Positions 7,281-62,822 of a stretch of 64,000 nucleotides of DNA are shown here, piece by piece; the stretch's first letter is position 1, and every line of letters starts with the position of its first letter. The translations under genes and the position numbers were made by a program. The DNA lies in contig JADGAZ010000004.1 in NCBI GenBank assembly GCA_015231755.1, positions 1-64,000 on the forward strand, read 5' to 3'. A model generated the notes under the pieces. That model saw nothing but the letters and a program-made list of their open reading frames with translations. It ran no database searches and was not told the origin of the DNA. This stretch comes from Magnetococcales bacterium (lineage in GTDB: Bacteria; Pseudomonadota; Magnetococcia; Magnetococcales; Magnetaquicoccaceae).

Positions 7281-7348
7281 ACAATACTTCCAATCGTCCA
7301 GCCTTCTCTTCGACAACGGCTGGCGTGCCGATTCGGCACACCGTTGCC

Positions 7349-7579: not shown

Positions 7580-7615
7580 TTCATCACCTCACGGGAACCG
7601 TTTTGCCGATTGATC

Positions 7616-8068
7616 TCAACGATTCACCCGGCGTTCCACCCGGACCTTGACTTCGGGGATGATGTCGGGATGCAGACGGATGCGCACCGTGTGATCACCG
7701 AGGGTCCGAATGGGATAGGGCACATCGATGGAACCCCGGGGGGTCTCGATGCCCCGCCCCAAAAAGAAAGCGGCAATGTCGGAATTGGTGACCGAACCGA
7801 ACAGTTTGTCGGAGGATCCGGCGGGACGATCCAGCACCACCTCCACGTCGGCGATCTTGGCGGCCAGGGCCTGGGCCCGCTCGAAGATCTCTTGTTGACG
7901 GGCCTCGAAGGCGAGCCGTTCCACCTCAAAGCGATCCCGATTCTTCCGGGTGGCGGGCAGAGCCTTGCCTTCCGGGATCAAGAAGTTGCGGCCATAACCG
8001 GCGCGCACCTGGACCACGGCGCCCAGATCACCCAATTTGCCAATCTTTTCCAAAAGTATCACTTCCAT
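7616..8068 (-). CDS. rplI: 50S ribosomal protein bL9
   Basis: bL9 is a two-domain large-subunit protein that contacts the L1 stalk region. The 150-residue product starts with the signature MEVILLEKIGKLGDLG and the family block VRAGYGRNFLIPEGKALPAT. A helical linker and a C-terminal rRNA-binding domain (SVTNSDIAAFF...HPDIIPEVKVRV) follow. Length is normal. It ends the bS6-PriB-bS18-DUF2232-bL9 order and lies six bases after the DUF2232 gene. Confidence 0.97.
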   Translation of the reverse strand: MEVILLEKIGKLGDLGAVVQVRAGYGRNFLIPEGKALPATRKNRDRFEVERLAFEARQQEIFERAQALAAKIADVEVVLDRPAGSSDKLFGSVTNSDIAAFFLGRGIETPRGSIDVPYPIRTLGDHTVRIRLHPDIIPEVKVRVERRVNR

Positions 8069-8074
8069 GGCTTA

Positions 8075-9040
8075 TTAGCTCCCAGGGGGATTCCCCCCCT
8101 CCTTGCTGGTGCGGAAAAACCGAGTGCGAAAATCGACCCAGATATCAAACAGGCCCAGAGCCGTCACCACGAGGACGACCTGGTACCACAAAAACATGGC
8201 CAGATAGAAAAAACTCCGCACCACCCCGGAAACCGGGTAGCGGCGGAAAGCGGCCTGTACGATCGACATCCCCTGCATGAAATAGAGGATGGCCAGAACC
8301 AAAACCAGATTGGCCCCCAGCATGTGGAGAAAGCCGGAAGCGGCGAAGGCCGGCAAGGCCGCGCCGATGACCACCCAGACCAGGGGGAAAGGCAGACGCC
8401 ATTCGGTCAGGTCCTCGACGGCGAACAGGGTGGTTCCTCCCCATTTGCCCACCAGGGTACGGGCTGCCAACAGGTTGCCCGCATGCAACAAAAACCACCC
8501 CGACACCACAAAGCCCGGCAGAAGCAGGGCCATGACGGCAAGCACCGGCTCCAAGACGGTACGGGCGTCGGCCAAGATTACGGCATCCCCTCCCTTCTTG
8601 GCAATGGTGGCCAGCACATGGGTCTTGAAGGTATCGAGTTTCAGCGCGGTTTCGGCCTGAAAATCGATGCCCATGAACAGCGTCCAGACAAAAAAGAGCA
8701 GCATGATGCCGACGCCCGACAAAAAGGCGACGCCCAGACAGTGGCTCACCTTCCACCCCGCCCGTACCATCCGGGCCGCCAACAGCGGGAAGCCGAAAAA
8801 GAGCAGGAAGGCGGTGAGGGGAAAACGCAGCCCATCCCCCAGGAGAAAGGCTCCCACCACGGGAATGGCCGCTCCGATCCACCCGGACCGGGAGCCACCC
8901 CACAGGGCGGTCAGGAGTACGGGCAAGGGGGCGACCATCTGCAACGGCACCAGCAGAGGCAGTCCCATGGGCAGGATCATCAAGACCAGGGCCTGCGTTC
9001 CCGCGACCACCGGATTGGTCACCCAGCCGAGGGGAGTCAT
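8075..9040 (-). CDS. DUF2232 (YybS-like) integral membrane protein
   Basis: The 321-residue protein is almost wholly hydrophobic, with roughly eight membrane segments (for example residues 12-50, 55-75, 100-125, 165-190, 225-270, 280-305). Its place between rpsR and rplI is the usual location of DUF2232/YybS-family genes in several proteobacteria. The family is uncharacterised; some members resemble energy-coupling-factor S-like membrane proteins. The ATG at 9040 has no strong ribosome site. It is probably cotranscribed with rpsR and translationally close to rplI. Confidence 0.8.
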   Translation of the reverse strand: MTPLGWVTNPVVAGTQALVLMILPMGLPLLVPLQMVAPLPVLLTALWGGSRSGWIGAAIPVVGAFLLGDGLRFPLTAFLLFFGFPLLAARMVRAGWKVSHCLGVAFLSGVGIMLLFFVWTLFMGIDFQAETALKLDTFKTHVLATIAKKGGDAVILADARTVLEPVLAVMALLLPGFVVSGWFLLHAGNLLAARTLVGKWGGTTLFAVEDLTEWRLPFPLVWVVIGAALPAFAASGFLHMLGANLVLVLAILYFMQGMSIVQAAFRRYPVSGVVRSFFYLAMFLWYQVVLVVTALGLFDIWVDFRTRFFRTSKEGGNPPGS

Positions 9041-9134
9041 GACAGGTCATCCGACCGGGTTGGGGCTACCCGGAGGCACCCCTTCATTCCGATCGACAAA
9101 CGGCATGGCCCCCCGGATGACCAAGCCGTCCGGT

Positions 9135-9560
9135 TCACTTGACGAGGTGAGGCAACAAAGCGATGTTGCGCGCCCGTTTGATCGCCTTGCTCAGACGGCG
9201 CTGGTGAGGCGCACAGACACCGGTGATGCGGCTCGGGACGATCTTGCCGCGCTCGGTGATGAAACGAAGCAGCAGCTTGGGATCTTTGTAGTCGATCTGG
9301 AGCGCCTTGTCCGCACAGAACACGCACACCTTGCGACGGCGAAAGAAGGGACGACGGAATCCCCCGGCGGCACCGGCGGCGCCGGCAGGCCCCGCGGGAC
9401 GGGCACCGGGTCCACCGGAAGCCCCACCAGCCGGACGGCCCCCCATGCGACCACCGCCACCACCGGGACGACCCGCCCCAAAGGAACGACCCGCGCCACC
9501 GAACGAACGGGCTGGCTGGGAGTCGAAAGTCGAATTGGAGTCATTGTCTTGATCGGACAT
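9135..9560 (-). CDS. rpsR: 30S ribosomal protein bS18 with long Gly-rich N-terminal extension
   Basis: The start is the ATG at 9560, preceded by GAGGAAG at good spacing, giving 141 residues. bS18 normally has about 75-90. The conserved core begins near [17 protein letters not shown] and continues through [24 protein letters not shown] and [16 protein letters not shown]. The first 65 or so residues are an added low-complexity tail, Asp/Ser-rich then Gly/Ala/Arg/Pro-rich ([14 protein letters not shown]). Gly/Arg-rich tails are often RNA-binding and disordered; the role here is unknown. bS18 binds bS6 in the 30S platform, and rpsF is two genes upstream. Confidence 0.95.
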
Positions 9561-47619: not shown

Positions 47620-48279
47620 CTATCCCTGTTCAACCTGGCGCACGTCGGCCAGATTCACCCGCCGCCCGTTCATTTCCAGGATGACTCCAGAGGTATCGTT
47701 GATCACCGCCTTCACCACACCGGACTCCAGGGTGGAAACCGCTACAGAGTTCCCCTCCGAATCCTGCCTGGTGACGGAAAATTGATAGTTGCCATTCGGG
47801 ATGGCCGTATCCCGCACCGTATAACTTTGGGATCCGCTGTCAAAAGTTTGCGCGGGAATGGTCTTGACCACCTGACCGGTCTCATCCAACAGGTTGATGG
47901 TGACCGCTCCGGTCTGGGGCATGTCGAAACGCAGTTTCCCCTCCCCGCTGGCCATGGTCATATTGTTGCCTTCCACCACCGCCACCTTGCCGATATAGGA
48001 GACCGCCTGATTCATCTGACCGACATTCTGGGACTTCACCAGTTGTTCCAGCAGTTGATTGCTTTTCTGTTGTTCGTTCAAGCCGGTGAACTGGGCCATC
48101 TGACTGGTGAATTCGGTGTTTTCCACCGGTTTCATCGGGTCTTGATACTGCAATTGCGCGGTCAACAATTTCAGGAAATCAACCCGCAACTGATCGGCGT
48201 CCTGAGTGGTCTGGGCGTACTTGGTCGAGGTGGTATCCACCGTAGGAATGCTGCCATATACTCCACTCGTGCTGCTCAT
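47620..48279 (-). CDS. flgD: Flagellar hook capping protein FlgD
   Basis: The N-terminal motif is QLRVDFLKLLTAQLQYQDPMKPVENTEFTSQMAQFTGLNEQQKSNQLLEQL, diagnostic for FlgD. Residues 95-215 form the Ig/tudor-like part (GAVTINLLDETGQVVKTI, GNYQFSVTR). FlgD caps the growing hook. Length (219 residues) is normal. It lies between fliK and flgE, the common order. Confidence 0.96.
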   Translation of the reverse strand: MSSTSGVYGSIPTVDTTSTKYAQTTQDADQLRVDFLKLLTAQLQYQDPMKPVENTEFTSQMAQFTGLNEQQKSNQLLEQLVKSQNVGQMNQAVSYIGKVAVVEGNNMTMASGEGKLRFDMPQTGAVTINLLDETGQVVKTIPAQTFDSGSQSYTVRDTAIPNGNYQFSVTRQDSEGNSVAVSTLESGVVKAVINDTSGVILEMNGRRVNLADVRQVEQG

Positions 48280-48398
48280 CGTCCATACTCCCGTCTGTCG
48301 TCGGAACCCATGTCAGGGTCGGTTCCCGCCGGGGCGATCATCGACCCTGAAGCTGTTTCATTCACATTTCGCGCCAAAATTGCGTCTTTTTCAGACAA

Positions 48399-49754
48399 TC
48401 AGGCAAAAAGACTCAAACCTGCGGCCCCTCCACTGCTGGCGACAGGCGGCGAACGCAAGGATTCCATGGACAACTCTCCACGATCACTCCCCCGTCCACC
48501 CCACCAAATCTGGGATTGCTGCCGTTCGTCATCCGCCGGATTGCCCCCCTGGAATCCCCACTCCGGAGCGTTTCCGCCACCGCTGCCGTCATCCACATGG
48601 ACGATCACCTCTCCCATTTCAAGATTCTGGCGGGCCAACGCTTCCCGCAACTGGGGCATTTGACGGTTCAGGATATCCCGTGTCGCTTCCGATTCGGTGG
48701 TGATCATCAAATGGACCTGACGCTCATCGTCCACCACCAGCCGCATATCCAGCCCTCCCAGATCCCGGGGATGCAGGGAAATCCGCACCTGTTCCGCACC
48801 GCCGGGACGGGAGATGACCCGCAACCGCCCCACTTCGTCGGCCAGATCATCGGCAAAGGTCGGAGAGTTGGCCGAAAGAGGGGTCTGGGAGGTGAGTCCC
48901 GGCTTGCCCGGGGCGGTGGGACTGCCATCGGAAACCAGACGCATGGCAAAAGCGAAATCGTTCTTGTCGTCGCCGGAGGTCAAGGCTTGCAGATGAGAGA
49001 CTTCGGGACGGGTCATGCCCCGGGCACCCATGGTTTCGGCGAGCCGTTGGGCCGGGGAAGGAGGAACGGCGAATTCGTGGACAGGAGACGGACCCGGAGA
49101 CGCGGGGGCTTGTCCCGTCGGATTGGGTTGACCCGGCGCCACGCCCTGACCCGGCAGTGACGGTATATTGGCGGAACCTGGAGACGCGGTTCCTTCCGTG
49201 GTGGGCGTACCGGACAAGGCGGCCACATGACCCTCCACAGGGACGATCAAGGCGCCATGGGGCAAGGCCAGCCACATTTCATCCCCTTTTTTCCGGTTGG
49301 AACGGGGTTTCCCCGGAGAACCGGCACTCTCTTGCAACGGTTTTTCTCCGGTCATCCCGGCGCAAGCCGTGGTCTCTGCGGATTCGGTGGTTTGCCCGGC
49401 GGCTTCGGATTCACTCTCGACATCCCGGGCTTCCCGGGCTTCCCGGGCTTCCCGGACTTCCCGGGATTCCTGGGAAACCCGCGCCTCCCGGGCCTCGCCG
49501 GATGCGCGGGTTTCCCGGGCTTCACTGACGTTTGCGGCATTTTTTTCAGACTCTTCCACCTCGGAACGGGAGCGGGCCGATTCGGTCTGGCTCTCGTCCT
49601 GTCCGGCAGCGGACTTGCGGGCCTCGGCCCGTTGCAACGCCTTCTCGAAATGGCGGGCGCTCGCCTCCTCGGCGGACCTGGTGACCGTTGTCCGCTCCGC
49701 ACTGGCGGGCGGACGCATCTCCACCTGGGGAATGGACATCTTCAACAAGGTCAT
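48399..49754 (-). CDS. fliK: Flagellar hook-length control protein FliK
   Basis: ATG 49754 after GAGAG is taken as start (451 residues); frames upstream have TTG or ATG without ribosome sites. The C-terminal FliK domain (from about 320) has RISLHPRDLGGLDMRLVVDDERQVHLMITTESEATRDILNRQMPQLREALARQNLEM, the substrate-switch region. The N-terminal half is low complexity: an Arg/Glu/Ala repeat (residues about 80-115), then Pro/Gly-rich. Such disordered ruler regions are typical and diverge fast. Confidence 0.93.
   Translation of the reverse strand: MTLLKMSIPQVEMRPPASAERTTVTRSAEEASARHFEKALQRAEARKSAAGQDESQTESARSRSEVEESEKNAANVSEARETRASGEAREARVSQESREVREAREAREARDVESESEAAGQTTESAETTACAGMTGEKPLQESAGSPGKPRSNRKKGDEMWLALPHGALIVPVEGHVAALSGTPTTEGTASPGSANIPSLPGQGVAPGQPNPTGQAPASPGPSPVHEFAVPPSPAQRLAETMGARGMTRPEVSHLQALTSGDDKNDFAFAMRLVSDGSPTAPGKPGLTSQTPLSANSPTFADDLADEVGRLRVISRPGGAEQVRISLHPRDLGGLDMRLVVDDERQVHLMITTESEATRDILNRQMPQLREALARQNLEMGEVIVHVDDGSGGGNAPEWGFQGGNPADDERQQSQIWWGGRGSDRGELSMESLRSPPVASSGGAAGLSLFA
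49423..49520 (-). repeat. Short 9-base tandem repeats in fliK encoding REA units
   Basis: Imperfect copies of a 9-base unit (gggcttccc on the plus strand) recur about ten times and encode Arg-Glu-Ala/Val triplets in the disordered N-terminal half of FliK. Copy number probably varies between strains. Confidence 0.75.
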
Positions 49755-50004
49755 GGCAAGACTCTCGACGATGGAGTTGGCACAAAAAAGACGGGTATCC
49801 AACTCCATTACATTCAAACATCATGCCATATTGACAATTCAACCCCGACGCCATCCCCTGTCCCCCTGAACGGGACCGGGAGGCAAGATCCTCCACACCG
49901 GGCATTTTCTGCCCGAACCGGAAGCGCCGGTTTTGCCGACCCGGCAATCCCACCCTGCTTCCGATCTGCCGAATGGCGAACCGGAGGTCAAACCATCCCC
50001 CCCA

Positions 50005-51219: not shown

Positions 51220-51609
51220 TCAGGCGGCGGCCGCGATGGCGGCGAGATCGATGTCATCCGGATCCTGGAGGTCCAGACACGACTGGCCGGCTTGTTTCTT
51301 GCTTGCCGGTCCAAGGCAGACTTTCAAACGCTCTTCCAGGCGGTTCAAGGCCCATTTGGGATCGATGTTGACCAGGGAACAAATCCAGTTGAAAGAACCC
51401 GGCTCCATGGAGGAGGAGTGAAACCATTTCCGCAAGGTGCGATAATCATAACGAAACACCGGATCCTCCATCACGGCCGGATCCTGACGATACCGCTCCA
51501 GGGCCACGAGATCACGCACCGCCCGATCCATGACGGCCATCCAGAGATGGGTGTCATTATTGTCCACGGCAGGCTCATGCAACAGTTCCGAAACGACCGA
51601 TTTGTTCAT
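51220..51609 (-). CDS. Hypothetical protein (129 aa)
   Basis: ATG 51609 has GGGAGAG seven bases before. The soluble product has HLWMAVMDRAVRDLVALERYRQDP, YDYRTLRKWFHSSSMEPGSFNWICSLVNIDPKWALNRLEERL, and an acidic/Ala tail (DPDDIDLAAIAAAA). The middle, with a WF..S..EPGSFNWIC pattern, looks like a helix-turn-helix or DNA-contact region, but this is only an impression. No family recognised. It is divergent from the cheA operon with a 425-base gap and ends in a strong hairpin, so it is an independent unit. Confidence 0.65.
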   Translation of the reverse strand: MNKSVVSELLHEPAVDNNDTHLWMAVMDRAVRDLVALERYRQDPAVMEDPVFRYDYRTLRKWFHSSSMEPGSFNWICSLVNIDPKWALNRLEERLKVCLGPASKKQAGQSCLDLQDPDDIDLAAIAAAA

Positions 51610-52034
51610 AGTACAACTCTCCCTGTCAGACCCGATGGCCCGTCTTTACTAGATGATTTTAAACGAGAACAACGCCCATGGGCGCAGTCCGGACAAAACG
51701 ATAACCGCGCTCTCTTCGTCCCATCGCGGCCCGCGGCGTACAGGGGGATTCCACCCCCTTCGCCATGGCCACGACCCATTTGTAACATAGCGTAAATGGG
51801 AAAAATGCATCCAAAGCGCGTTAATCATAGCCGAAACATTCCAAAAATGATATAGAAATTTTCGCCGCGATCCATTTTCACGCGGCCAGACGTGCCTGTG
51901 GGGGAATGCCTCCTTGTCCATCTTGATTTCTCGGATGGAATCCCGATACACTGATAAAGTCCGCCTCTTAAAAAAAGGGTTGCGGTCCGTAACAACCCGT
52001 AACAAGCGTCGCGCGTTCAGGGGAAATTGTCGTC
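51610..52034. other. Divergent intergenic region upstream of the cheA operon
   Basis: This 425-base region carries promoters for the leftward 129-residue gene and the rightward chemotaxis operon. A weak TTGATT-18-TACACT pair (near 51924-51953) is the best sigma-70-like candidate upstream of cheA. A direct repeat CCGTAACAA/CCGTAACAAG (about 51987-52006) follows. No convincing gene, sigma-54 or sigma-28 site was found. Confidence 0.4.
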
Positions 52035-55000
52035 ATGGCCGAGGAAGATGATGAACTATTGGGCATGTTCGTGCAGGAAGCCACCGAGCATTTGGAGACC
52101 ATCGAGCCTGACCTTCTGACCCTGGAGGAACGAGGCGACAGCACGGATCCGGAGATCATCAACCGGCTGTTCCGCAGCGTGCACTCGATCAAAGGCTCGG
52201 CCGGATTCTTCGGACTTTCCAGCATCACCAAGCTGAGCCACACCATGGAGAATCTCCTGGGCAAGGTGCGGGACAAGTCCATGTCGGTGTCGCCAGCCGT
52301 CACGGACAGTCTGCTCTCCGGGCTCGACAAGCTGCAAACCATGATCCACGACGTGTCGGCCAGCGAATCCGTGGACGCCAGCGAACAGATCGCCACCATC
52401 CAGGCCATCCTGGAAGGCAGCGGCATGGGGGGGGGAGCGGCGCCGAAAGTGCTGGCAGCCCCGGCTCCCAAACCCGCGCCCACCCCGGAACCGGCTCCGG
52501 AACCCGAACCGGTCCCCGAGGCCGATCCCGGGGAGTCCGACGACGCCCCTGCGGCAACCGGGACGGAAACCAAAAAGGTGGTGCTCAAGACCTTCGACCT
52601 GCAAAAATATCCGGAGGCGGTGGCCGATGCGGTCACCCATGGACGCCGGTTTTTCTCCATCACCATGGATCTGCCGTCTGGCAAGGACGAGCGGATCGAC
52701 CTGTTCAACACCACCAAATCCTTGATGGAATCGGTGGGATCCATCGTGGCCACGGATCCGTCCTTCCAGTCCAACAAGGAACTGGAAGCCCTGGAAACCA
52801 CCTCTTTGGCGGTCCTGCTCTCCACGGTCTTGGAGGATGATCTGCTGCTGTCGCTGCTACAGGTGGCGCCGGACCACATCCAGAAGCAGGCCCTGCCCGC
52901 CGGCGCGGCCCAGACCGCCCAGGTCACCGCGACCCGCAAGGCCTCCGGACCGATTGTCGTGGCCAGCAAACCCCGGGAGATCAACAACAACGACGAAGAC
53001 GAGGACGAAGACGACTCCGGCCAACGGACCAAAAGTCCCCACACCCCCCGTCTCAAAAAACCCAAATATGCCGCCACCCCCAAGCGCAGCGCCACCCCCC
53101 GCACCGGAGCCCCCACCACCAAAAGTTCCAGCCCCACGGTGGAAGAGACCCTGCGGGTCAGCGTCTCCTTGCTGGACGAGCTGATCAACAACGCGGGAGA
53201 ACTGGTGCTGGCCAGAAACCAGCTCTCCCGCGCCGCCGTGGAGGTGCAGGCCAAATTCCCCCACTTCGGACCTTTGGTGCAAAATCTGGACTCCATCACC
53301 AGCCGCATCCAGGAACGGGTCATGCAGGCCCGCATGCAGCCGGTTTCGGTGGTGTTCAACAAGTTTCCCCGCATCGTGCGGGATCTGGCCCACAAACTGG
53401 GCAAAAAAATCGATCTGGAACTGCGGGGCGGCGACGTGGATCTGGACAAGTCGGTGATCGAACATCTCTCCGATCCCCTGACCCACATGATCCGCAACGT
53501 GGCCGACCACGCCATCGAAATGCCCCAGGACCGTCTGGCCAACAACAAACCCGAAGCCGGACAGGTGGAACTGGCCGCCTATCACGAAAACGGCATGGTG
53601 AACATCTCCTTGGCCGATGACGGTGGCGGCATCGACGCGGAACGAGTCAAGGCCAAGGCGCTGGAACGGGGCGTGATCACCGAACGCCAGGCCGACACCA
53701 TGAGCGAAGAAGACGCCCTGGATCTCATCTTCGCGCCGGGTTTCTCCATGGCCAAGAAGATCTCCGATGTCTCGGGCCGCGGCGTGGGCATGGACGTGGT
53801 GCGCACCAATATCGAAAAACTCGGTGGCACGGTTCAGATCCTCTCCAAGGTGGGCAAGGGGACCACCATCATTCTCAAGCTTCCCCTGACCCTGGCCATC
53901 ATTCCGGCCATGATCGTGTCCGCGGGCAACCAGCGTTTCGCCATTCCGGAGATCGGACTGGTGGAAATCGTGCGGGTGGCGGAATCCGACCGTGCCCAAC
54001 AGATCGAAATCGTTGGCAACGCCCCGGTGCTGCGACTGCGCAACATGCTGCTGCCTTTGGTGGATCTCACCGAAGTGTTGAACATTCCGCGCGTCTGGCC
54101 CGCCGACAGCCAGGAACCCGACCGCCGGGAACGGCTTTCCGACCGTCGGGGCGCCATGCGCAAGGCCAAGGAAGCCTCCATCAACAGCAAAAACCACACC
54201 GATCCCCTCACCGATCGCCGGGATCCCCACACCCTGGTGGCCTACGTGATGGTCCTCAACGTAGGCGGCAACGAGTTCGGCATGGTGGTGGATGAAGTCC
54301 TCGACAGCGAAGAGATCGTGGTGAAGCCCCTGCCCGCCTTCTTCAAGGACAACCCCTGTTTCTCGGCCACCACCATTCTGGGTGATGGCAGCGTCTCCTT
54401 GATCATCGACTACGCCGGACTCATGGAGCAGGCCCAGATCAACTTCAGCAACGTGGAACGGGCCACCCGCATGGATCTGGACGAGGAACGCCGGGCCGCC
54501 TTGCGGGAGAGACAGAACATCATCCTGCTGGAAACCGGTACCGGACTCATCATGGGTATTGTCCACAGCATGGTGCGCCGGGTGGAGAAGATCTCCCCCA
54601 AACTCCTCGACACCATCGGCGGACTCCCCTATGTACGCTACGACGGCAAGACCTTCCGGGCCATCTACCCGGATCACGTCCTGGGACTCGAAGGCATGGG
54701 GCTGTCCCGCAACAGCAGCGACTCCGAGGAAGAGGAGGATCTCAACCTCTGCATGGTGGTGCCCAACATCCCGGACATCCAGGCCGGTCTGATCTTCTCG
54801 CGCATCCTCGACACCCGGGAGACCAACATCGATCTGGATTGCCGCGCCATCCAGGCTCCTGGCCTGTTCGGTTCGGCGCAGATCGACGACCGGGTGGTGC
54901 TGTTCCCGGATGTCAACGCCGTGTTCGAGATGGCGGGCATCCGTCCTCCCTGGCTGCCGCCTCAGGTGGAAGGCTCGGGATTCCGCGCCTTGGTGGTGGA

Positions 55001-55337
55001 CGACACCCCGTTCCTGCGGGTACTCACCAGCAACTATCTGAGTTCGGTGGGCTTCGAGGTGGATCAGGCCGAAGATGGCCAGGCCGCCATCAGCATGCTC
55101 AACCGCAGCGACTACGACTTGTTGGTGACCGACCTCAACATGCCGGTCATGGATGGCTTCGAGCTGGCCAACGAGCTGAATGGCACGCCCCATGCGGAAA
55201 TCCCCATGATCGCCACCACATCCTCCATCTCCTCGGAGCTGGAAGATCGTTGTACCCGTGCCGGGTTCGTCAGTTGTGTGCCCGCCATCGACAAGAACCG
55301 ACTGCTCAAGGTGGTCTCCACCCTGCGCCCCCGTTGA
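52035..55337 (+). CDS. cheA: Hybrid CheA histidine kinase with two CheW domains and C-terminal receiver
   Basis: The 1100-residue protein has: Hpt (1-130, phosphorylated His50 in RSVHSIKGSAGF), a Pro/Ala/Glu linker, an extra domain (about 180-285) that may be a second, His-less Hpt-like or P2-like part, a Pro/Lys linker, the dimerisation helices (365-440), HATPase (450-620; Asn488 in HMIRNVADHAIE, DDGGGID, GRGVGMDVV), CheW-like domain 1 (620-800, with a charged insert near 693-730), CheW-like domain 2 (about 825-965), and a receiver (985-1100; Asp1033 in VTDLNMPVMDG). The receiver lacks the conserved Lys before Pro (CVPAIDK instead of KP). It opens the che operon; cheW follows after 43 bases. 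Confidence 0.93.
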   Translation: MAEEDDELLGMFVQEATEHLETIEPDLLTLEERGDSTDPEIINRLFRSVHSIKGSAGFFGLSSITKLSHTMENLLGKVRDKSMSVSPAVTDSLLSGLDKLQTMIHDVSASESVDASEQIATIQAILEGSGMGGGAAPKVLAAPAPKPAPTPEPAPEPEPVPEADPGESDDAPAATGTETKKVVLKTFDLQKYPEAVADAVTHGRRFFSITMDLPSGKDERIDLFNTTKSLMESVGSIVATDPSFQSNKELEALETTSLAVLLSTVLEDDLLLSLLQVAPDHIQKQALPAGAAQTAQVTATRKASGPIVVASKPREINNNDEDEDEDDSGQRTKSPHTPRLKKPKYAATPKRSATPRTGAPTTKSSSPTVEETLRVSVSLLDELINNAGELVLARNQLSRAAVEVQAKFPHFGPLVQNLDSITSRIQERVMQARMQPVSVVFNKFPRIVRDLAHKLGKKIDLELRGGDVDLDKSVIEHLSDPLTHMIRNVADHAIEMPQDRLANNKPEAGQVELAAYHENGMVNISLADDGGGIDAERVKAKALERGVITERQADTMSEEDALDLIFAPGFSMAKKISDVSGRGVGMDVVRTNIEKLGGTVQILSKVGKGTTIILKLPLTLAIIPAMIVSAGNQRFAIPEIGLVEIVRVAESDRAQQIEIVGNAPVLRLRNMLLPLVDLTEVLNIPRVWPADSQEPDRRERLSDRRGAMRKAKEASINSKNHTDPLTDRRDPHTLVAYVMVLNVGGNEFGMVVDEVLDSEEIVVKPLPAFFKDNPCFSATTILGDGSVSLIIDYAGLMEQAQINFSNVERATRMDLDEERRAALRERQNIILLETGTGLIMGIVHSMVRRVEKISPKLLDTIGGLPYVRYDGKTFRAIYPDHVLGLEGMGLSRNSSDSEEEEDLNLCMVVPNIPDIQAGLIFSRILDTRETNIDLDCRAIQAPGLFGSAQIDDRVVLFPDVNAVFEMAGIRPPWLPPQVEGSGFRALVVDDTPFLRVLTSNYLSSVGFEVDQAEDGQAAISMLNRSDYDLLVTDLNMPVMDGFELANELNGTPHAEIPMIATTSSISSELEDRCTRAGFVSCVPAIDKNRLLKVVSTLRPR

Positions 55338-55380
55338 CGCATTGACACCGTGAAACCAGAACCGCCGGAGTAACCCTGCC

Positions 55381-55872
55381 ATGCTCGTCAGCACTTTCAC
55401 CCTGGGCGACCTCTATCTTGGGATCGATATCCTCTTGGTCCGGGAGATCAACCGCTCCATGGAGTGTACCCCGGTCCCCGGCTCTCCGGACTACATCCGG
55501 GGCATGCTGAATATTCGCGGTCGTGTCATCACCCTGTTCGATCTGAAATCCCGACTCTGCTGGTCGAAACCCGACTCCGGCGAAAGCCGGGTCAAACAAT
55601 ACAACGTCATCATGAAGACCCGGGACGAAGTGTTGAAAATCGACCACGAACTGGCCATGACCAAATGTCCCTGGGAGGATCCGGTGGGATTGGCCGTGGA
55701 TCAACTCGGGGACGTGCGGGACATCGTGGATGACAACATTCTGCCGCCACCGGCCAACCTGACCGGCATCGCCGCCGATTTTGTCCACGGAGTGGTGGAG
55801 TTCGAGCGCAATCTTCTGATCATCCTCGATGTGGCCACAGTGCTGGGGCTGAACAATCAGGCTTCAAGTTGA
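55381..55872 (+). CDS. cheW: Chemotaxis coupling protein CheW
   Basis: The 163-residue protein is one CheW domain: STFTLGDLYLGIDILLVREINRSMECTPVPGSPDYIRGMLNIRGRVITLFDLKSRL, VGLAVDQLGDVRDIVDDNI, and FVHGVVEFERNLLIILDVATVL. It links receptors to CheA. A somewhat long central loop (CWSKPDSGESRVKQYNVIMKTR) is unusual. Its stop overlaps the lead of the receptor gene. Confidence 0.95.
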   Translation: MLVSTFTLGDLYLGIDILLVREINRSMECTPVPGSPDYIRGMLNIRGRVITLFDLKSRLCWSKPDSGESRVKQYNVIMKTRDEVLKIDHELAMTKCPWEDPVGLAVDQLGDVRDIVDDNILPPPANLTGIAADFVHGVVEFERNLLIILDVATVLGLNNQASS

Positions 55873-55877
55873 CAGTG

Positions 55878-56849
55878 ATGAGCGGCCGGAACGACCAGCT
55901 CCTCCGGGAGATCCGCGAAGAGGTCACGCGCGAAGTGGACAGCGTGCGCGTGGAAATGGGCCAGATCCGCTCGCTGGTGCAAGATGCCATTGTCAAGTTG
56001 ACCGACAGTTTCAACGGACTGCGGGACAAATCCAACGATCAGCATCAGCTTGTCTCCTCGCTCACCCAATCCATGGACATCTCCAAGGATGCGGACGATT
56101 CAGCGATCAGCATTCGTAAGTTTGTCAGCGAGACGGACAAGATTCTGCGTACCTTTGTGGATCACATCATTCTGGTGAGCCGCCAAAGCATGGAGATGGT
56201 TCACCGGGTGGACGCCCTGGCCAGTCAGATGAACGAAGTGGTGATCCTCATCAAAGACATCAACGGCATCGCGGAACAGACCCATGTGCTCTCCCTCAAC
56301 GCCCGGATCGTGGCGGCCCGGGCCGGCCAGGCGGGACGCTCCTTTGCCGTGGTGGCCGACGAGGTGCGCAAACTGGCGGGCAACTCCCACGCCTTCAGCG
56401 GCAAGATCAGCGATGTGATCGATCAGGCCCGGGAGAACATCATGGCCACCAAGGAGATCATCGAAGTGATGGCCTCCAAGGATATGAGCTTTGCCATCGA
56501 ATCCAAAGGCCGGGTGGACTTCATGATGGAAGAGGTCAATGCCATCGACCAGTTCACCGCCGAAACCATCGGCAAGGTGGCCGAGATCACCGAAGAGATC
56601 AACATGCGAGTGGGCATCGCGGTGATGTCCTTGCAGTTCGAGGACATGGTCACCCAATTGACCCACAGCATGGAGCGAAAGTTCGCGGTACTGGAACAAC
56701 TGTCGGCGCTGTTTCCCTCCGATCTTGGGGAACACGACGCCGATTCCATCCAGGAAGCGCTCGTCCATCAGATAGAGCGCTTCAACATCGCCGACCGTCA
56801 GGCTGTGCAACAGACCAGCATGGATGAAGGCGGCATCGAGTTGTTTTAA
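55878..56849 (+). CDS. Soluble methyl-accepting chemotaxis protein with divergent signalling tip
   Basis: The 323-residue product (ATG 55878) has no membrane segment or recognised sensor domain; it is almost entirely coiled coil. The signalling hairpin tip is at about 127-170 (DINGIAEQTHVLSLNARIVAARAGQ, GRSFAVVADEVRKLAGNS). The usual EAARAGE segment reads VAARAGQ here, and charged residues are lost. The C-terminus (residues 265-323) has FEDMVTQLTHSMERKF. A cytosolic receptor in the operon of a CheA with two CheW domains suggests a dedicated intracellular signalling array. Confidence 0.88.
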   Translation: MSGRNDQLLREIREEVTREVDSVRVEMGQIRSLVQDAIVKLTDSFNGLRDKSNDQHQLVSSLTQSMDISKDADDSAISIRKFVSETDKILRTFVDHIILVSRQSMEMVHRVDALASQMNEVVILIKDINGIAEQTHVLSLNARIVAARAGQAGRSFAVVADEVRKLAGNSHAFSGKISDVIDQARENIMATKEIIEVMASKDMSFAIESKGRVDFMMEEVNAIDQFTAETIGKVAEITEEINMRVGIAVMSLQFEDMVTQLTHSMERKFAVLEQLSALFPSDLGEHDADSIQEALVHQIERFNIADRQAVQQTSMDEGGIELF

Positions 56850-56948
56850 AAAAGCGTTCGGAAAACCCCGAGGTTCGGGTTGCGTTCCCCGACGCCGAGA
56901 TCATCATACTTTTTTTCTACTCACCATTCTGAACACGAGGAGAACCCC

Positions 56949-57263
56949 ATGTCTGGAACCATTCACGTCAGCCGCAGCGACAAGGAGACCGTCATCGGAG
57001 TCAAAGGTCGCTTCAACTTCGAGATGCACTCCCAGTTCCGCGCCGCCTATCAAAGCGACTCCGGAGAGGACAACCAGGGCAGACGGTTCGTGATCGATCT
57101 GGCCGGCACCGAATACATCGACTCGTCGGCGCTGGGCATGCTGTTGCTGCTGCGGGAAGAGGCCGGAGCCAACGAATCGGACATCGAGATCATCAACACC
57201 CGTCCGGAAATCCGCAAGATTCTGGAAACCGCCAATTTCCAACGCCTGTTCAAAATCGCCTGA
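56949..57263 (+). CDS. STAS-domain anti-sigma factor antagonist (HsbA/SpoIIAA type)
   Basis: ATG 56949 with GAGGAG upstream gives a 104-residue single STAS domain: TVIGVKGRFNFEMHSQFRAAY, RFVIDLAGTEYIDSSALGMLLLLREEAG. The switch serine is in the DSSALGML motif, phosphorylated by a kinase and dephosphorylated by a PP2C phosphatase in partner-switching systems. The next gene encodes a protein with both such activities. It resembles HsbA of Pseudomonas aeruginosa, which binds the anti-sigma factor FlgM. The target here is unknown. Confidence 0.93.
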   Translation: MSGTIHVSRSDKETVIGVKGRFNFEMHSQFRAAYQSDSGEDNQGRRFVIDLAGTEYIDSSALGMLLLLREEAGANESDIEIINTRPEIRKILETANFQRLFKIA

Positions 57264-57316
57264 CCGAAAATACCGCCCCCTTTTTTGAATGCGAAAGTTT
57301 GAATGCGAAAGACGGC

Positions 57317-59029
57317 ATGAAGATCCTGATCGTCGATGACGACCCAATCAACCGGACGATTTTGCAACGGTTGCTGGGCAAGGAAGGACACGAGGTCATC
57401 ACGGCCAACAATGGTCGCGACGGCGTGGAGGCGTTTGCGCTCCATCATCCGGATCTGGTGCTGATGGACATCCGCATGCCAGGGATGAACGGTTACGAAG
57501 CGGCGCGGGAAATCAAAACCCTGCACGCTTCCCATTTCACGCCGATCATCTTTCTGACCGCGGTGACCGATGAAGAGGGGCTGGTGCAATGCATCGACTC
57601 CGGCGGTGACGACTTTCTGACCAAACCGTTCAACCGCACCATCCTGCAAGCCAAGATCGGTGCCATGGAACGGATCCGCCAATTGCACGCCCGTTTGCGG
57701 TTGCAAAAGGAGGAACTGGAACTCCATCAGGAACGGGTCCATCAGGAACTCGAAGTGGGCAAGCATATTTTTGCCCACATCGTGCGGGCGGGCAATCTGC
57801 TGGACGCCCCGTGCCTGAACCACTGGACCTCGCCGATGACCCTGTTCAACGGCGATCTCCTGGTGGCCAGTTACAATCCCGCCGGTGGTCTGCACATCAT
57901 GCTGGGGGATTTCACCGGTCATGGTCTATCGGCGGCGGTGGCGGCCATGCCGGTGGCGGATATTTTCTATGACATGACGGCCCAGGGATTTTCCATCGGC
58001 GACATGGCCGAGGCAATGAACGTCAAGCTGTTGTCGATCATGCCCCGACGGATGTTCTGCGCCGCCTGCCTGATCGAGGTGGACCATCGACAACAAAGTC
58101 TCGTGATCTGGAACGGTGGACTGCCGGATGTACTGATCGTGGATGGATCGGGGCGTCTGGTGCAACGCATCCCCTCGACCCACATGCCCCTGGGGGTGGC
58201 TCCCATGACCCGGGAGGACCGCAAGGTGGAAATCCTGGAAATCCGTCCGGATTACCGGGTGTTTCTGCACTCCGACGGCGTGACCGAAGCCACGGCCACC
58301 AACGATACCATGTACGGTTCGGAACGCCTGGAGAGCCATTTCGACGGCACCCATGGTCCCGAAACCCTGTTTCACGCCATTCTCGACGATCTGGAACAAT
58401 TCCGCGGCACCGCCCAGCAGACCGATGACATCAGCCTGTTGGAAATCGTCTGCGACCGGGCCGGAGAGGAACCCCGGGGCATCGAGGAGAAACGTCAACG
58501 CACCGCCATTCCCCCGACCCCCTGGGAGGCCTCGTTCACCTTCAGCGCCCACACCCTGAAAAGCGTGGATCCCCTGCCGACGGTCATCAACACGGTGATG
58601 AATCTCCAGGCTCCGAGCGGGCATCGGGAACGGTTGTATACCATTCTGGCGGAGCTGTTCTCCAATGCCCTGGATCACGGCCTGCTGAAACTGGACACCC
58701 GCACCAAAAAAACCCCCGAAGGATTCATCCAGTACTACACCCAGCGGGAGGAACGTCTGGCCCGGCTGGAGGAGGGAACCATCCGGCTGGAACTCTCCCA
58801 CCGGCCCCGACCGCCGGAACAGACCGGCACCGAACCCAGAGGCGGCGAAATTCACATTCTCATGGAGGACACGGGCTGCGGATTTGAACTGGATCAGGTT
58901 CACTCCCAACTGCAAGGCAATGTCGGCCATGGTGGACGGGGCATCGCGCTGGTGAAATCCCTGTGCCACTCGTTGGAATATCAGGGGCGCGGCAACCGCG
59001 CCAAGGCGGTTTACCGATGGACGCTATAG
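57317..59029 (+). CDS. REC-PP2C(SpoIIE)-HATPase partner-switch regulator (HsbR-like)
   Basis: ATG 57317 gives 570 residues: receiver (1-125; Asp51 in LVLMDIRMPGMNG, Lys in LTKPFN), coiled-coil linker (125-160), SpoIIE/PP2C phosphatase (about 170-385; metal site in MLGDFTGHGLSAAV, HSDGVTEA, QQTDDISLLEIV), and a SpoIIAB-like HATPase kinase domain (about 420-570; LAELFSNALDHGLLKL, MEDTGCGFEL, GGRGIALVKSL). Thus one phospho-regulated protein holds both the phosphatase and the kinase acting on the STAS partner 53 bases upstream. The order matches P. aeruginosa HsbR. The direct repeat TGAATGCGAAAG precedes the start. Confidence 0.93.
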   Translation: MKILIVDDDPINRTILQRLLGKEGHEVITANNGRDGVEAFALHHPDLVLMDIRMPGMNGYEAAREIKTLHASHFTPIIFLTAVTDEEGLVQCIDSGGDDFLTKPFNRTILQAKIGAMERIRQLHARLRLQKEELELHQERVHQELEVGKHIFAHIVRAGNLLDAPCLNHWTSPMTLFNGDLLVASYNPAGGLHIMLGDFTGHGLSAAVAAMPVADIFYDMTAQGFSIGDMAEAMNVKLLSIMPRRMFCAACLIEVDHRQQSLVIWNGGLPDVLIVDGSGRLVQRIPSTHMPLGVAPMTREDRKVEILEIRPDYRVFLHSDGVTEATATNDTMYGSERLESHFDGTHGPETLFHAILDDLEQFRGTAQQTDDISLLEIVCDRAGEEPRGIEEKRQRTAIPPTPWEASFTFSAHTLKSVDPLPTVINTVMNLQAPSGHRERLYTILAELFSNALDHGLLKLDTRTKKTPEGFIQYYTQREERLARLEEGTIRLELSHRPRPPEQTGTEPRGGEIHILMEDTGCGFELDQVHSQLQGNVGHGGRGIALVKSLCHSLEYQGRGNRAKAVYRWTL

Positions 59030-59065
59030 ATCTGACGGGACCGATGCAAGCGATGGGAGCGATGC

Positions 59066-60319
59066 ATGGCTGAATTCATCAATGCCATGGTGGTGGATGA
59101 TACCATCACCTATCGCATGATCATGAAAAAAGTCGCGGAGAGCATTCCCGGCATCCGCGTCACCAACACCTCTTCCAACGGCAAGCTGGCACTGGACAAA
59201 ATCGTCGCGCAATTCGCCTCCAACGACCCGGAAAGACCCCATGTGGTGCTTCTGGACGTGGAGATGCCGGTCATGGATGGCCTGACCACCCTCAAAGAGC
59301 TGCGCAAACGGTTTCCCAGGCTGACGGTGGTGATGGTGAGTTCCACCTCCCGATCCAACGCCAACATCATTGTCGAATGCCTCAACGCCGGCGCCATCGA
59401 CTTCATCACCAAGCCTCTGGAAAACAATGTGGAGCGGGCCAAGGCCGCCTTGCGTCACAGCCTGGAACCGATCCTGTCGCTGCTGTTGCAAAACACCGAC
59501 AACGATCAACCACCCGCCTCCGCCCCGACCCCGTCCGCTGCGGCCCCGGGTCCGGCCTCGGGTCCGGCCTCGGCGGCGACCTTTCCGGCACCCGGAGCGG
59601 CTTCCCGGCCTCCCCTGTCGCCTCCGATCCGACCACCGGTGCTGCCCCGTCCGACGGAACGCTTGGTCACCCCCCCCACACCCGCGGTCTCCTTCGCCCC
59701 CCGCTCCGCCGTCTCCTTGAAAAGTCCCAACCTGCCGGACCTGCTGCTGATCGGCTCTTCCACGGGGGGTCCGGCGGCATTGACGACCATCTTCTCCATT
59801 CTCAAGGAAAAATTGCCCATCCCCACCCTGATCGTTCAGCATATGCCTCCGGTTTTCACCACATCCCTGGCCGCGCAATTGAGCCGTGCGTCGGGTCTGA
59901 CGGTGAAAGAGGCCAGGGACGAGCAACCTCTGACACCCGGAAGTGTCACTATTGCCATGGGAGGACGACATATGACCTTGCAAAATCGCGAAGGAAGCTT
60001 CAAACTGATTCTCAACGACGGACCCAAGGTCAACGAATGTCGTCCGGCGATCGATGTGTTATTTATGTCTGTGGCCGCTTCCTTCACGGGAAGCGTTTTG
60101 AGCATTATCCTCACCGGCATGGGACGGGACGGGACCAACGGTGTGGACGCACTGAAACGCGGAGGCAAAACGTGGTGTATCACTCAAGACAAGCAATCCT
60201 GCGTGGTGTACGGCATGCCCCGTTCCGTTGAAGAAAAAGGCCTTTCCGACGAAGCCCTGTCTCTGGATGCCATCGGTCCCAGGATCATTCAACTCTGCAA
60301 CCCATCAGTGGCCCGCTGA
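59066..60319 (+). CDS. cheB: Chemotaxis methylesterase/deamidase CheB
   Basis: The receiver (1-130; Asp64 in VVLLDVEMPVMDG) is followed by an unusually long Pro/Ala-rich linker (about 148-215) and the methylesterase domain (223-417). The catalytic triad is Ser232 in GSSTGGPAAL, His259 in VQHMPP and Asp355 in GMGRDG. CheB removes receptor methyl groups when phosphorylated by CheA. The linker is longer than the roughly 20 residues of E. coli CheB. Confidence 0.95.
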   Translation: MAEFINAMVVDDTITYRMIMKKVAESIPGIRVTNTSSNGKLALDKIVAQFASNDPERPHVVLLDVEMPVMDGLTTLKELRKRFPRLTVVMVSSTSRSNANIIVECLNAGAIDFITKPLENNVERAKAALRHSLEPILSLLLQNTDNDQPPASAPTPSAAAPGPASGPASAATFPAPGAASRPPLSPPIRPPVLPRPTERLVTPPTPAVSFAPRSAVSLKSPNLPDLLLIGSSTGGPAALTTIFSILKEKLPIPTLIVQHMPPVFTTSLAAQLSRASGLTVKEARDEQPLTPGSVTIAMGGRHMTLQNREGSFKLILNDGPKVNECRPAIDVLFMSVAASFTGSVLSIILTGMGRDGTNGVDALKRGGKTWCITQDKQSCVVYGMPRSVEEKGLSDEALSLDAIGPRIIQLCNPSVAR

Positions 60320-60321
60320 CC

Positions 60322-61149
60322 ATGGCCATCACTCAAGAAGAATTCGACGCCATCCGTCATTTCATCAACGAGCACAGCGGTATTCAGATCAATCCCGGCA
60401 AGGAGTATCTGATCGAAAACCGTCTGACCGTCCTGCTGGTGCAGAACGGCTGCGAGAACTTTCTCCAGTTGCACGCCAAATTGAAAGCCGACACCGGCCC
60501 GTTGCGGACCAAGGTGATCGACGCCATGACCACCAACGAAACCTTGTGGTTCCGCGACGACTCCTTCGCTTCGGCCCTGTCCGATCATGTAGTCCCGGCC
60601 CTGGTCAAAAAAGCCCGTACCGCGCCCCAGGTCCGCATCTGGTCGGCGGCCTGTTCCACGGGTCAGGAGCCTTATTCCATCTCCATGCTGATCAACGAAG
60701 AGTTGAGCAAGGTGGATGCGCCCCCTCCGATCAGCAAGTTTTCCATTCTGGCCACGGATCTCTCTCCCTCGGCCATCGTGCTGGCTTCTTCGGGGCGCTA
60801 CAGCCAATTGGCCATCTCCCGGGGCATGCGTCCGGAGTTCCTGGAACGCTACTTCAAAAAGAATGGCATGGTCTACGAAGTGGCCCCGGAAGTGCGCAAT
60901 CTGGTCAAGTTCCAACAGTTCAATCTCATGAGTCCCTTCAAGGAACATGGAATCTTCGACTTTGTGCTCTGCCGCAATGTGTTGATCTACTTCTCGGATG
61001 AGTTGAAGCGTCAAATCTATGGCAAGATTCATGACAGTCTTCAAAAAGACGGACTCCTGGCGATCGGTGCGTCGGAATCACCCAGGGGGTATACGAACGG
61101 GTTTCAACAAGTCATGATGGGCAGCGCCGCACTGTACCGCCCAACCTGA
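60322..61149 (+). CDS. cheR: Chemotaxis methyltransferase CheR
   Basis: CheR methylates receptor glutamates with S-adenosylmethionine. The 275-residue product shows an N-terminal helical domain and DAMTTNETLWFRDDSFASAL, WSAACSTGQEPYSISMLI (AdoMet site), ILATDLSPSAIVLASSGRYS and FDFVLCRNVLIYFSDELKRQI. All motifs are standard. It starts two bases after the cheB stop. Confidence 0.96.
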   Translation: MAITQEEFDAIRHFINEHSGIQINPGKEYLIENRLTVLLVQNGCENFLQLHAKLKADTGPLRTKVIDAMTTNETLWFRDDSFASALSDHVVPALVKKARTAPQVRIWSAACSTGQEPYSISMLINEELSKVDAPPPISKFSILATDLSPSAIVLASSGRYSQLAISRGMRPEFLERYFKKNGMVYEVAPEVRNLVKFQQFNLMSPFKEHGIFDFVLCRNVLIYFSDELKRQIYGKIHDSLQKDGLLAIGASESPRGYTNGFQQVMMGSAALYRPT

Positions 61150-61202
61150 AGACATGCAAGTGAGTCGCAACCTGGAAACACGTTTTGAAAAAGTGAAACC
61201 TC

Positions 61203-61580
61203 ATGAAACTACTCACCATTGACGACTCCAGAACCATTCGTCGCGTCATCAGCGGCATCGGAGCCATGGTCGGCTTCGAGGTGCTCGAAGCGGAAAACGG
61301 CGACATGGGCATCAAAGTCCTGGAAAAACATGGCGAAGAGGTCGCCCTGATCCTTCTGGACTGGAACATGCCCGGCATGAATGGTCTTGAAGTGCTGAAA
61401 CTGCTCAAGGCCGATCCACGCTGGGCGCACATTCCGGTGATGATGGTCACGACCGAAGGCGAAAAAGACTACATCATCAAGGCGATTCAGGCCGGTGCCA
61501 TCCACTATCAGACCAAACCCTTCACACAAGAAGAGATGGCGGCCCGTATCATGGAAGCCTTGGGCATGGGCGGTCTTTAA
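61203..61580 (+). CDS. cheY: CheY-type single-domain response regulator (first copy)
   Basis: The 125-residue receiver has DDS at 7-9, phosphoacceptor Asp53 in LLDWNMPGMNG, Thr in MMVTTEGE and Lys in YQTKPFTQEEM. DWNMP and TTEG are typical of motor-type CheY. It is the first of two CheY proteins in this operon that differ by about half their residues, so one may act on the motor and the other as phosphate sink. Confidence 0.92.
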   Translation: MKLLTIDDSRTIRRVISGIGAMVGFEVLEAENGDMGIKVLEKHGEEVALILLDWNMPGMNGLEVLKLLKADPRWAHIPVMMVTTEGEKDYIIKAIQAGAIHYQTKPFTQEEMAARIMEALGMGGL

Positions 61581-61625
61581 GCGTCGGTTGTCAATCCAGC
61601 ATCCCCACCCTTCACGGAGCGTCCC

Positions 61626-62102
61626 ATGAGCGGATCCGATACTGCCGAACTGATGCACAAACTCTTGAACGGCCTGCGCCTAGCGGTCACGGAAATGATG
61701 ACCTCCATGGCCATGTCCGAAGTGGTCTTCGCCGGCCAGGAGAGCGCGGATTCCTTCACCCTCACCAACGAAGTGGTGGGACTGGTACGGTTGGACGGAC
61801 AATTGCATGGCATGGTGGGTGTGTCATGCAGCCAGACACTCTTGCGTGAGATTGTTTCCCGCATCGTGGGGCTCACACCCGATGATCTCACCATGGAAGA
61901 TCTGCTCGACGGCGCCGCGGAACTGGCCAACATGGTGTGTGGCGGCATGAAAACCAAAGCCCAGATCGGCAGTGTCAATCTCTCCCCCCCGGTCGCCATC
62001 GTCGGCCAGGAGTACACGGCCCAATGGAAAACCAATCACCCGACCACAGTCTTCACCTTTCAAATGGATGAAGGCGTGCTCATGGTCCATGCCAGCCTGT
62101 AG
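61626..62102 (+). CDS. cheX: CheX-type CheY-P phosphatase
   Basis: The 158-residue protein has a single CheC/CheX active-site helix with the ExxN pair Glu99/Asn102 in GAAELANMVCGGMKTK. It also shows VVGLVRLDGQLHGMVGVSC and a C-terminal beta strand (VFTFQMDEGVLMVHASL) resembling dimeric CheX. CheX dephosphorylates CheY-P; no cheZ or cheC is present in the window. It sits between the two cheY genes, consistent with such a role. Confidence 0.85.
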   Translation: MSGSDTAELMHKLLNGLRLAVTEMMTSMAMSEVVFAGQESADSFTLTNEVVGLVRLDGQLHGMVGVSCSQTLLREIVSRIVGLTPDDLTMEDLLDGAAELANMVCGGMKTKAQIGSVNLSPPVAIVGQEYTAQWKTNHPTTVFTFQMDEGVLMVHASL

Positions 62103-62213
62103 AATCACCTGGGCCAGAAAAAACTTGAACCTTTGGCACTTTTCTGCGAAGGTATTGATTTTGACTTGATCGTATATCGTTTCAACCAGACCGACGGATT
62201 GCAGAGAGGGAAT

Positions 62214-62588
62214 ATGCGCGTATTGATCGTTGACGACTCCAGCGTCATGCGGAAAATTGTGGCTCGTGGCCTACGTCAGGCCGGTTTCAAAATCACGGAC
62301 ATCCTGGAAGCCGGCGATGGCCAGCAAGGCATGGACCTGCTCAAAACCGACACCAACTTCAAGCTGATCCTCTCGGACTGGAACATGCCGATCATGGATG
62401 GCCTGAATTTCGTCAAATCGGTCCGCAGCGGTCCTCCCGCCATCAAGAACATCCCCATTGTCATGGTTACCACCGAAGGTGGCGAAGCCAAAGTGGGTGC
62501 CGCCATGGAAGCCGGTGCCAACGGTCACATCAAAAAACCGTTCACCCCGGAAACCCTCCAGGTCGAACTGGAACGGTTCCTGAAATAA
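62214..62588 (+). CDS. cheY: CheY-type single-domain response regulator (second copy)
   Basis: ATG 62214 after GAGAGGG gives 124 residues: DDS at 7-9, Asp55 in LILSDWNMPIMDG, Thr in VMVTTEGGE and Lys in HIKKPFTPETL. It is closest in style to canonical motor-binding CheY. A frame extending upstream to 62133 is unlikely because the ribosome site precedes 62214. Last gene before a strong terminator. Confidence 0.93.
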   Translation: MRVLIVDDSSVMRKIVARGLRQAGFKITDILEAGDGQQGMDLLKTDTNFKLILSDWNMPIMDGLNFVKSVRSGPPAIKNIPIVMVTTEGGEAKVGAAMEAGANGHIKKPFTPETLQVELERFLK

Positions 62589-62617
62589 CACGCCCACCCC
62601 GCTTCACACATGAGGTC

Positions 62618-62684
62618 GGCAGAAACACCATTGTTCGCAACCCGTTTCCCGGGTGCAGGCAATGGTGTTTCTGCCTTCTTTTCC
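62618..62684 (+). terminator. Terminator of the che operon
   Basis: A perfect 16-bp stem (62618-62633 GGCAGAAACACCATTG with 62660-62675 CAATGGTGTTTCTGCC) encloses a 26-base loop and is followed by TTCTTTTCC. It lies 29 bases after the second cheY stop. Confidence 0.8.
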
Positions 62685-62822
62685 GCCGACTCGTTCCATC
62701 CCGCCTCGGTTTCATCACCCTGTCCGTTAGTGCCAATTTTTTGAATGGTATAAAATTTGCTTTAAATCCCTCGCCAGATCCTTGGATCACACCCATGTGG
62801 ATATATGAGCGAGCGTTAAGCG

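Follow-up and report, generated by a model that had tools for sequence, protein, structure and literature searches.

A predicted HsbR/HsbA-type partner switch encoded inside a flagellar chemotaxis operon of Magnetococcales

The window analysed here, the first 64,000 nucleotides of contig JADGAZ010000004.1 from a Magnetococcales genome, contains a chemotaxis operon with the gene order cheA-cheW-MCP-like-STAS-RSH-cheB-cheR-cheY-cheX-cheY, every gene being on the plus strand and RSH denoting a receiver-SpoIIE-HATPase protein (Table 1). Neighbouring genes overlap by 4 bases at the closest and lie 99 bases apart at the widest, and no promoter- or terminator-like site within positions 51600-62700 scored above the shuffle mean. 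The open reading frame list and Pfam matches bear out the first-pass annotation in placing a lone STAS gene ahead of the receiver-SpoIIE-HATPase gene, the 3′ end of which precedes cheB. A receptor had been annotated on the other flank; an MCP-fold gene does lie 5′ of the STAS gene, but it encodes a short soluble McpA/CttP-like protein and no ordinary receptor. Divergent flagellar genes lie to the left of the operon; their names are presumptive, taken from family features.

Table 1. Coordinates of the chemotaxis operon, its domains and motifs, and the flagellar neighbours in the window.
Feature	Position	Strand	Basis or remark
flgD and fliK-type hook-length gene, divergent flagellar neighbours	47620..49817	-	presumptive names
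cheA: Hpt, dimerisation, HATPase, and CheW domains, C-terminal receiver; 1100 aa	52035..55337	+	
Hpt domain of cheA	52053-52349	+	
cheW	55381..55872	+	Pfam
McpA/CttP-like MCP-fold protein, 326 aa, without hydrophobic segment	55869..56849	+	MCPsignal 2.1e-20
CheZ-type motif F257-E-D259-M-V-T-Q263 in McpA-like protein	56637..56657	+	
Conserved C-terminal tail QQTSMDEGGIELF of McpA-like protein	56808..56846	+	
STAS protein, predicted HsbA-type anti-sigma-factor antagonist, 104 aa	56949..57263	+	S59 codon 57123-57125
RSH, receiver-SpoIIE-HATPase protein, predicted HsbR-type	57299..59029	+	TTG 57299 or ATG 57317 start
Receiver domain of RSH	57323..57658	+	D51 codon 57467-57469
SpoIIE-type PP2C phosphatase domain of RSH	57881..58447	+	
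SpoIIAB/RsbW-like HATPase (serine kinase) domain of RSH	58607..58999	+	HATPase_c_2
cheB	59066..60319	+	Pfam
cheR	60322..61149	+	Pfam
cheY1	61203..61580	+	Pfam
cheX-like phosphatase	61626..62102	+	CheX 1.3e-20
cheY2	62133..62588	+	Pfam

RSH is 576 amino acids long when read from TTG 57299 and 570 when read from ATG 57317. Residues are numbered here from the ATG, and if that codon is the start, Asp51 is correctly named as the receiver phosphorylation residue. RSH matches Pfam families Response_reg (3e-30), SpoIIE (9.5e-38), and HATPase_c_2 (1.9e-06), and the STAS protein matches STAS_2 (6.8e-11) and STAS (1.1e-10). The catalytic residues of the receiver, phosphatase, and kinase (N/G1/G2) are identical in 40 of 40 Magnetococcales RSH proteins, with the exception of G540, which is a serine in three. 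None of the 40 carries inactivating changes in the phosphatase or kinase motifs, which the first-pass annotation had named beforehand as evidence against its proposal, and the intact RSH active-site residues rule out a degenerate enzyme. Among 72 named gammaproteobacterial and Nitrospira relatives the motif residues are nearly constant (single replacements of H202 by Y, H454 by Y, and R541 by K), and positions D9, N178, and S319 are variable. S59 of the STAS protein and the preceding D58 are kept in all 123 paired STAS proteins. By counting along a Pseudomonas protein, S59 corresponds to serine 56 of HsbA, given as the HsbA phosphorylation site in PMC5085249.

The nearest named relatives of RSH are from Magnetococcales assemblies and are 66-85% identical over the whole protein; identity to named proteins outside the order is 37-45%. 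The RSH receiver scores 160 bits with an HsbR receiver profile versus 52-66 with profiles of CheY1, CheY2, and CheB. Within the searches made, no other protein of its genome combined the three domains of RSH, and the other SpoIIE proteins encoded there match just RSH residues 8-385 or less. Searches of solved structures returned receiver-domain or receiver-containing entries only for RSH (among the best 60 of 280 matches), one STAS relative, TM1442, for the STAS protein, and chance matches only for the HATPase domain alone. Shared domains, gene order, pairing, catalytic residues, and sequence similarity agree with the HsbA/HsbR-like identity first given to these proteins, and on these grounds STAS-RSH is classified as an HsbR/HsbA-type pair. 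Four Magnetococcales genomes (loci L085, L086, L087, and L088) encode a second full-length receiver-SpoIIE-HATPase paralogue with no STAS gene called alongside; its kinase is degenerate, with H454 changed to W or Y in three of the four and R541 kept in one.

Full-length RSH is present in 40 of 48 Magnetococcales genomes. In one more, G017, two contigs each hold part of the gene; the seven genomes without an RSH match are 57-82% complete. The open reading frame calls place a STAS gene next to RSH in 39 of the 40 full-length loci, tblastn found one in the fortieth (L079), and che genes surround the pair in 33 of the 40. Che-embedded pairs also occur in 10 of the 72 named relatives (L119, L120, L121, L125, L127, L128, L130, L131, L139, and L148), eight of which continue into fliK and its neighbours, several with the order cheA...cheB-hsbA-hsbR-hptB-fliK, and in two of nine more distant relatives (L053 and L055). 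Loci L277, L278, L287, and L288, from the same phylum, read cheA-cheW-mcp-cheR-...-cheB with STAS-RSH at the end. Pseudomonas loci read fliG-fliH-fliI-fliJ-STAS-RSH-hptB-fliK, and PMC5085249 likewise places hsbA-hsbR-hptB at the fliK-side flagellar site in species other than P. aeruginosa. In P. aeruginosa, according to the same paper, the hsb genes adjoin cheR, a cheW-like gene, and flgM. With cheR and cheW beside the P. aeruginosa pair and 10 of 72 named relatives che-embedded, the che setting looks less special than the first-pass annotation had suggested, and the pairs in other Magnetococcales and other lineages rule out an arrangement unique to this organism. No description of a che-embedded HsbA/HsbR pair, or of STAS-SpoIIE genes in che operons, was found in the open-licence literature. 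PMC9239204 includes a lone STAS gene in gene orders that it gives for other F classes, and the available parts of PMC5907407 and PMC6374484 hold nothing on the pair within che operons. Two more STAS genes in the genome studied adjoin cheA of other che operons (C1:283748-283987 and C11:74117-74356).

The seven Magnetococcales loci in which STAS-RSH has no linked cheA represent two independent lineages, genus g2 and genome G037. In g2 (G011-G017, seven of seven genomes), six full-length loci and the one split gene lack che genes at the locus, the G013 locus being readable for just 1 kb on the upstream side and 5.4 kb on the downstream side. Gone from the g2 and G037 loci are cheA, cheW, the MCP-like gene, cheB, cheR, and cheY, and STAS-RSH still lies beside flagellar genes, those of flgD/fliK type. 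An RSH tree was built by a quick method with SH-aLRT support after nine duplicate records had been removed and 20 Pseudomonas-type rows thinned out. In it Magnetococcales form one clade (100), the six g2 rows fall together (100), G037 is placed beside the che-linked G024 (100), and the branches nesting g2 within the che-linked set have support of 86-93. Receiver dN/dS is 0.010-0.059 in five che-less g2 pairs versus 0-0.096 in eight che-linked pairs, where several synonymous distances in the other domains were saturated and the G037-G024 pair gave no ratio; the g2 receiver is under strong, undiminished purifying selection without linked che genes. Directly downstream of RSH, g2 genomes encode a conserved protein of 373-374 amino acids whose sole Pfam match is to one CBS domain (L073:7090-8211, L071:5376-6497, and L084:599-1717, all on the minus strand).

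Since STAS-RSH has been kept intact without linked che genes in two lineages, the pair does not need a linked CheA. The che-less genomes encode a CheA 52-60% identical to that of the window elsewhere, in che clusters that lack STAS-RSH in the stretches read, and because a CheA persists in these cells it could still act as a donor. The separation of the pair from che genes without its loss is also what would be expected of a passenger, inherited beside fliK and caught among che genes with no functional link to them. We consider such a passenger improbable, given that 33 of 40 loci in a single order retain the che linkage, which several other lineages also show, and that purifying selection is strong.

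The Hpt domain of CheA is the only one within the che operon of the window, and CheA, named by the first-pass annotation as the natural phosphodonor, may be one donor to the RSH receiver. A gene for HptB lies beside STAS-RSH in 54 of the 72 named relatives versus none of the 40 Magnetococcales loci. Hpt matches in the genome studied number 60; three lie in frames of 104-138 codons, and these stand-alone Hpt-sized frames could serve RSH in place of CheA. An unlinked Hpt or a hybrid kinase would then be the donor, as HptB is in Pseudomonas, and the site in the che operon would reflect co-expression only. This alternative has an appreciable chance, short of even, of being right: such Hpt-sized frames exist in Magnetococcales, all RSH catalytic residues are kept in the two lineages lacking linked che genes, the receiver dN/dS of che-less loci stays within the che-linked range, and hptB follows the che-embedded gammaproteobacterial pairs in 10 of 10 named loci. 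The lack of hptB beside any of the 40 Magnetococcales pairs counts the other way, as do the retention of a same-family CheA in the che-less genomes and the gene order with cheA kept across 33 loci.

Most che-linked Magnetococcales, and a further 12 loci, six of which (L106, L123, L132, L135, L149, and L171) have no che genes in the stretches read, encode a member of the family of this MCP-fold protein directly upstream of STAS-RSH. The family has an MCP signalling domain, is short, and has a conserved C-terminal tail and no CheR pentapeptide; the name McpA/CttP-like is based on gene position and the tail as described in PMC7184735, and not on the PA0180 sequence. That source treats the McpA-like receptors of F7 systems (CttP/McpA/PA0180 and VCA1088) as uncategorised and not needed for the array, describes them as having a conserved C-terminal region and no CheR pentapeptide, and lists early-stage F7 clusters with cheY and no cheZ. 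The tail [VIL]-[EDS]-L-F ends 47 of 50 MCP proteins adjoining STAS and two of 32 that do not adjoin it, both of them McpA-like members for which the open reading frame calls had missed the STAS gene or had it overlapped. An alignment of 12 divergent members shows L255, Q256, F257, D259, Q263, and the final L-F to be invariant.

The motif F257-x-D259-xxx-Q263 has the spacing of F141-Q-D143-LTG-Q147 in E. coli CheZ, in which D143 and Q147 are the catalytic residues. It occurs in 47 of 48 family members versus none of 32 other MCPs, at a distance from the C terminus of 70-82 residues in 45 members and 46 in two (74 in E. coli CheZ). Comparison of a CheZ profile with one of the McpA-like C-terminal part placed the motifs in register at an E value of 0.012, which taken alone proves nothing, since a control with other MCPs gave 0.032. 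In a search of 10,445 open reading frames with a CheZ profile built from six sequences, one incomplete, McpA-like proteins took the first six ranks (best E value, 0.044). Pfam CheZ (PF04344) matched three of 10 members below the cut-off (E values, 0.0098, 0.034, and 0.12) and the other seven not at all, and one of 12 members at an E value of ≤0.01; solved-structure searches with the family returned MCPs. These scores are not significant, and homology to CheZ is not established.

McpA-like genes also occur away from STAS-RSH. Among 16 loci outside Magnetococcales read around such a gene, it adjoins cheY or STAS in 11 and neither in five; the 11 would suit an enzyme acting on receivers. In g2 the gene lies by another che cluster, away from STAS-RSH, and G037 gave no McpA-like match over the threshold, which argues against a tie to RSH. 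The g2 gene is doubled in tandem by that cluster (L282:7609-9610, L283:10822-12817, and L284:10294-12303), one copy lacks the E-L-F tail, and the pair in L284 forms one 669-codon frame. Across 80 loci outside Magnetococcales, nine have the McpA-like gene without hptB, three both, 56 hptB only, and 12 neither (L162 was dropped as a copy of L049, and L150, with a generic MCP, was counted as lacking the McpA-like gene); the association with hptB absence (Fisher p, 1.7e-4) is not relied on, the rows being related and Pseudomonas over-sampled.

The best new lead from the locus is that this neighbour may be a CheZ-like phosphatase. We propose tentatively, judging it a possibility that falls somewhat below even chances, that the McpA/CttP-like protein is a receiver phosphatase built on an MCP hairpin and not a receptor. 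Its own hairpin tip would anchor it in the array, it would fill the place of the CheZ that F7-type systems lack, and where it is encoded 5′ of STAS-RSH it would determine how long RSH stays phosphorylated. The protein keeps the conserved sequence of the MCP hairpin tip, the region that binds CheA and CheW. If the proposal holds, a sigma-28 partner switch would receive chemosensory signals directly and in resettable form. The proposal would also give a testable function to a receptor family that the array can do without according to PMC7184735, and the systems listed there without cheZ would gain a candidate phosphatase.

The outputs described for P. aeruginosa in PMC5085249 and PMC6482189 are FlgM, RpoS through HsbR, and HsbD. 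FlgM is present in 45 of 48 Magnetococcales genomes and, being so common, discriminates little. The sigma-70 family matches in the genome studied are two RpoD-like, two RpoH-like (one confirmed as RpoH, the copy in C12 based on a single search), one RpoE-like, and one FliA/WhiG-type protein. Its RpoD-type matches at C2:2212-3000 and C2:8924-9712 have identical scores and lie about 6.7 kb apart, as a duplication or an assembly effect. RpoS matched over the cut-off in none of the 48 genomes and in one control genome, and on this ground an RpoS output is rejected. As the sole P. aeruginosa-type output with a target found here, FlgM/FliA is by analogy the best transferable candidate and the first to test. 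Alternatively, the STAS protein might act on the motor, the array, or a c-di-GMP enzyme instead of FlgM, or the RSH HATPase might itself be an anti-sigma factor. We give this, too, an appreciable chance, short of even. In P. aeruginosa HsbD, a diguanylate cyclase, is a binding partner of phosphorylated HsbA, and RpoS is one of HsbR D3 (PMC5085249 and PMC6482189), and in a second che operon of the genome studied a gene for an HD-GYP protein comes after a SiaABC-type switch. Set against these are the lack of RpoS matches, the description of HsbD as a P. aeruginosa acquisition (PMC5085249), and the constant flagellar neighbourhood of the pair, which favours a flagellar output.

By analogy with Pseudomonas, we put at about even the chance that Magnetococcales have retained an HsbR/HsbA-type partner switch within their flagellar chemotaxis operon and that it tunes flagellar output through FlgM and FliA. 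The HATPase domain of RSH would phosphorylate STAS S59, and the SpoIIE domain would remove that phosphate. Phosphorylation of D51 would shift the balance of RSH, by analogy toward phosphatase, and the STAS protein, once unphosphorylated, would capture a partner. FlgM is the likeliest one, and its capture would release FliA (sigma-28) to act on late flagellar genes. In this way flagellar output would slowly follow the state of the chemosensory array or of an unlinked Hpt, with CheY acting fast on the motor, and the McpA-like protein would sit in the array and help dephosphorylate receivers (CheY and possibly RSH). Were this coupling real, a serine switch would link chemotactic state directly to the expression of flagellar genes, both in several gammaproteobacteria and in an order made up of magnetotactic bacteria that are mostly uncultured. 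The loci that naturally lost che genes and kept STAS-RSH offer a ready comparison for what the switch requires.

Of the known systems, HsbR-HsbA-HptB of P. aeruginosa is alike in its receiver-SpoIIE-HATPase protein and lone STAS protein with a conserved serine, and in its flagellar neighbourhood, next to fliJ and fliK in Pseudomonas and beside flgD and fliK in Magnetococcales. Full-length relatedness with flagellar synteny was found against Pseudomonas loci other than that of P. aeruginosa's own HsbR. The Magnetococcales pair differs in lacking an adjacent hptB and lying inside cheA-cheW-...-cheB, and no RpoS was found and no HsbD-type partner is known in Magnetococcales. CrsR-CrsA of Shewanella oneidensis is a homologous system with a STAS partner, but its target, according to PMC6482189, is RpoS, not found in the 48 Magnetococcales genomes. 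McpA/CttP (PA0180) and VCA1088 of F7 chemosensory systems, as described in PMC7184735, resemble the MCP-fold neighbour as short MCPs without a CheR pentapeptide, with a conserved C-terminal region and a position at the che-cluster edge; the Magnetococcales copies differ in lacking an N-terminal hydrophobic segment and lying directly before STAS-RSH. CheZ has the F-x-D-xxx-Q motif too, similarly far from a short C-terminal tail that ends in F, but in the McpA-like protein the motif is embedded in an MCP hairpin and the profile scores are not significant. SiaABC of P. aeruginosa likewise combines a SpoIIE phosphatase, a kinase, and a STAS-like substrate, but its kinase, SiaB, is separate, and the SiaABC-type set of the genome studied sits in another che operon. 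That second operon, L092 (C11:58000-74000), carries the set after cheB at 4978-9320 on the minus strand, with a receiver-SpoIIE protein, a SiaB-family kinase (NF038262 over the cut-off), and SiaC (Pfam SiaC, 1.5e-39). The set ends with a GAF-HD-GYP protein, a c-di-GMP hydrolase-type neighbour in place of the SiaD cyclase.
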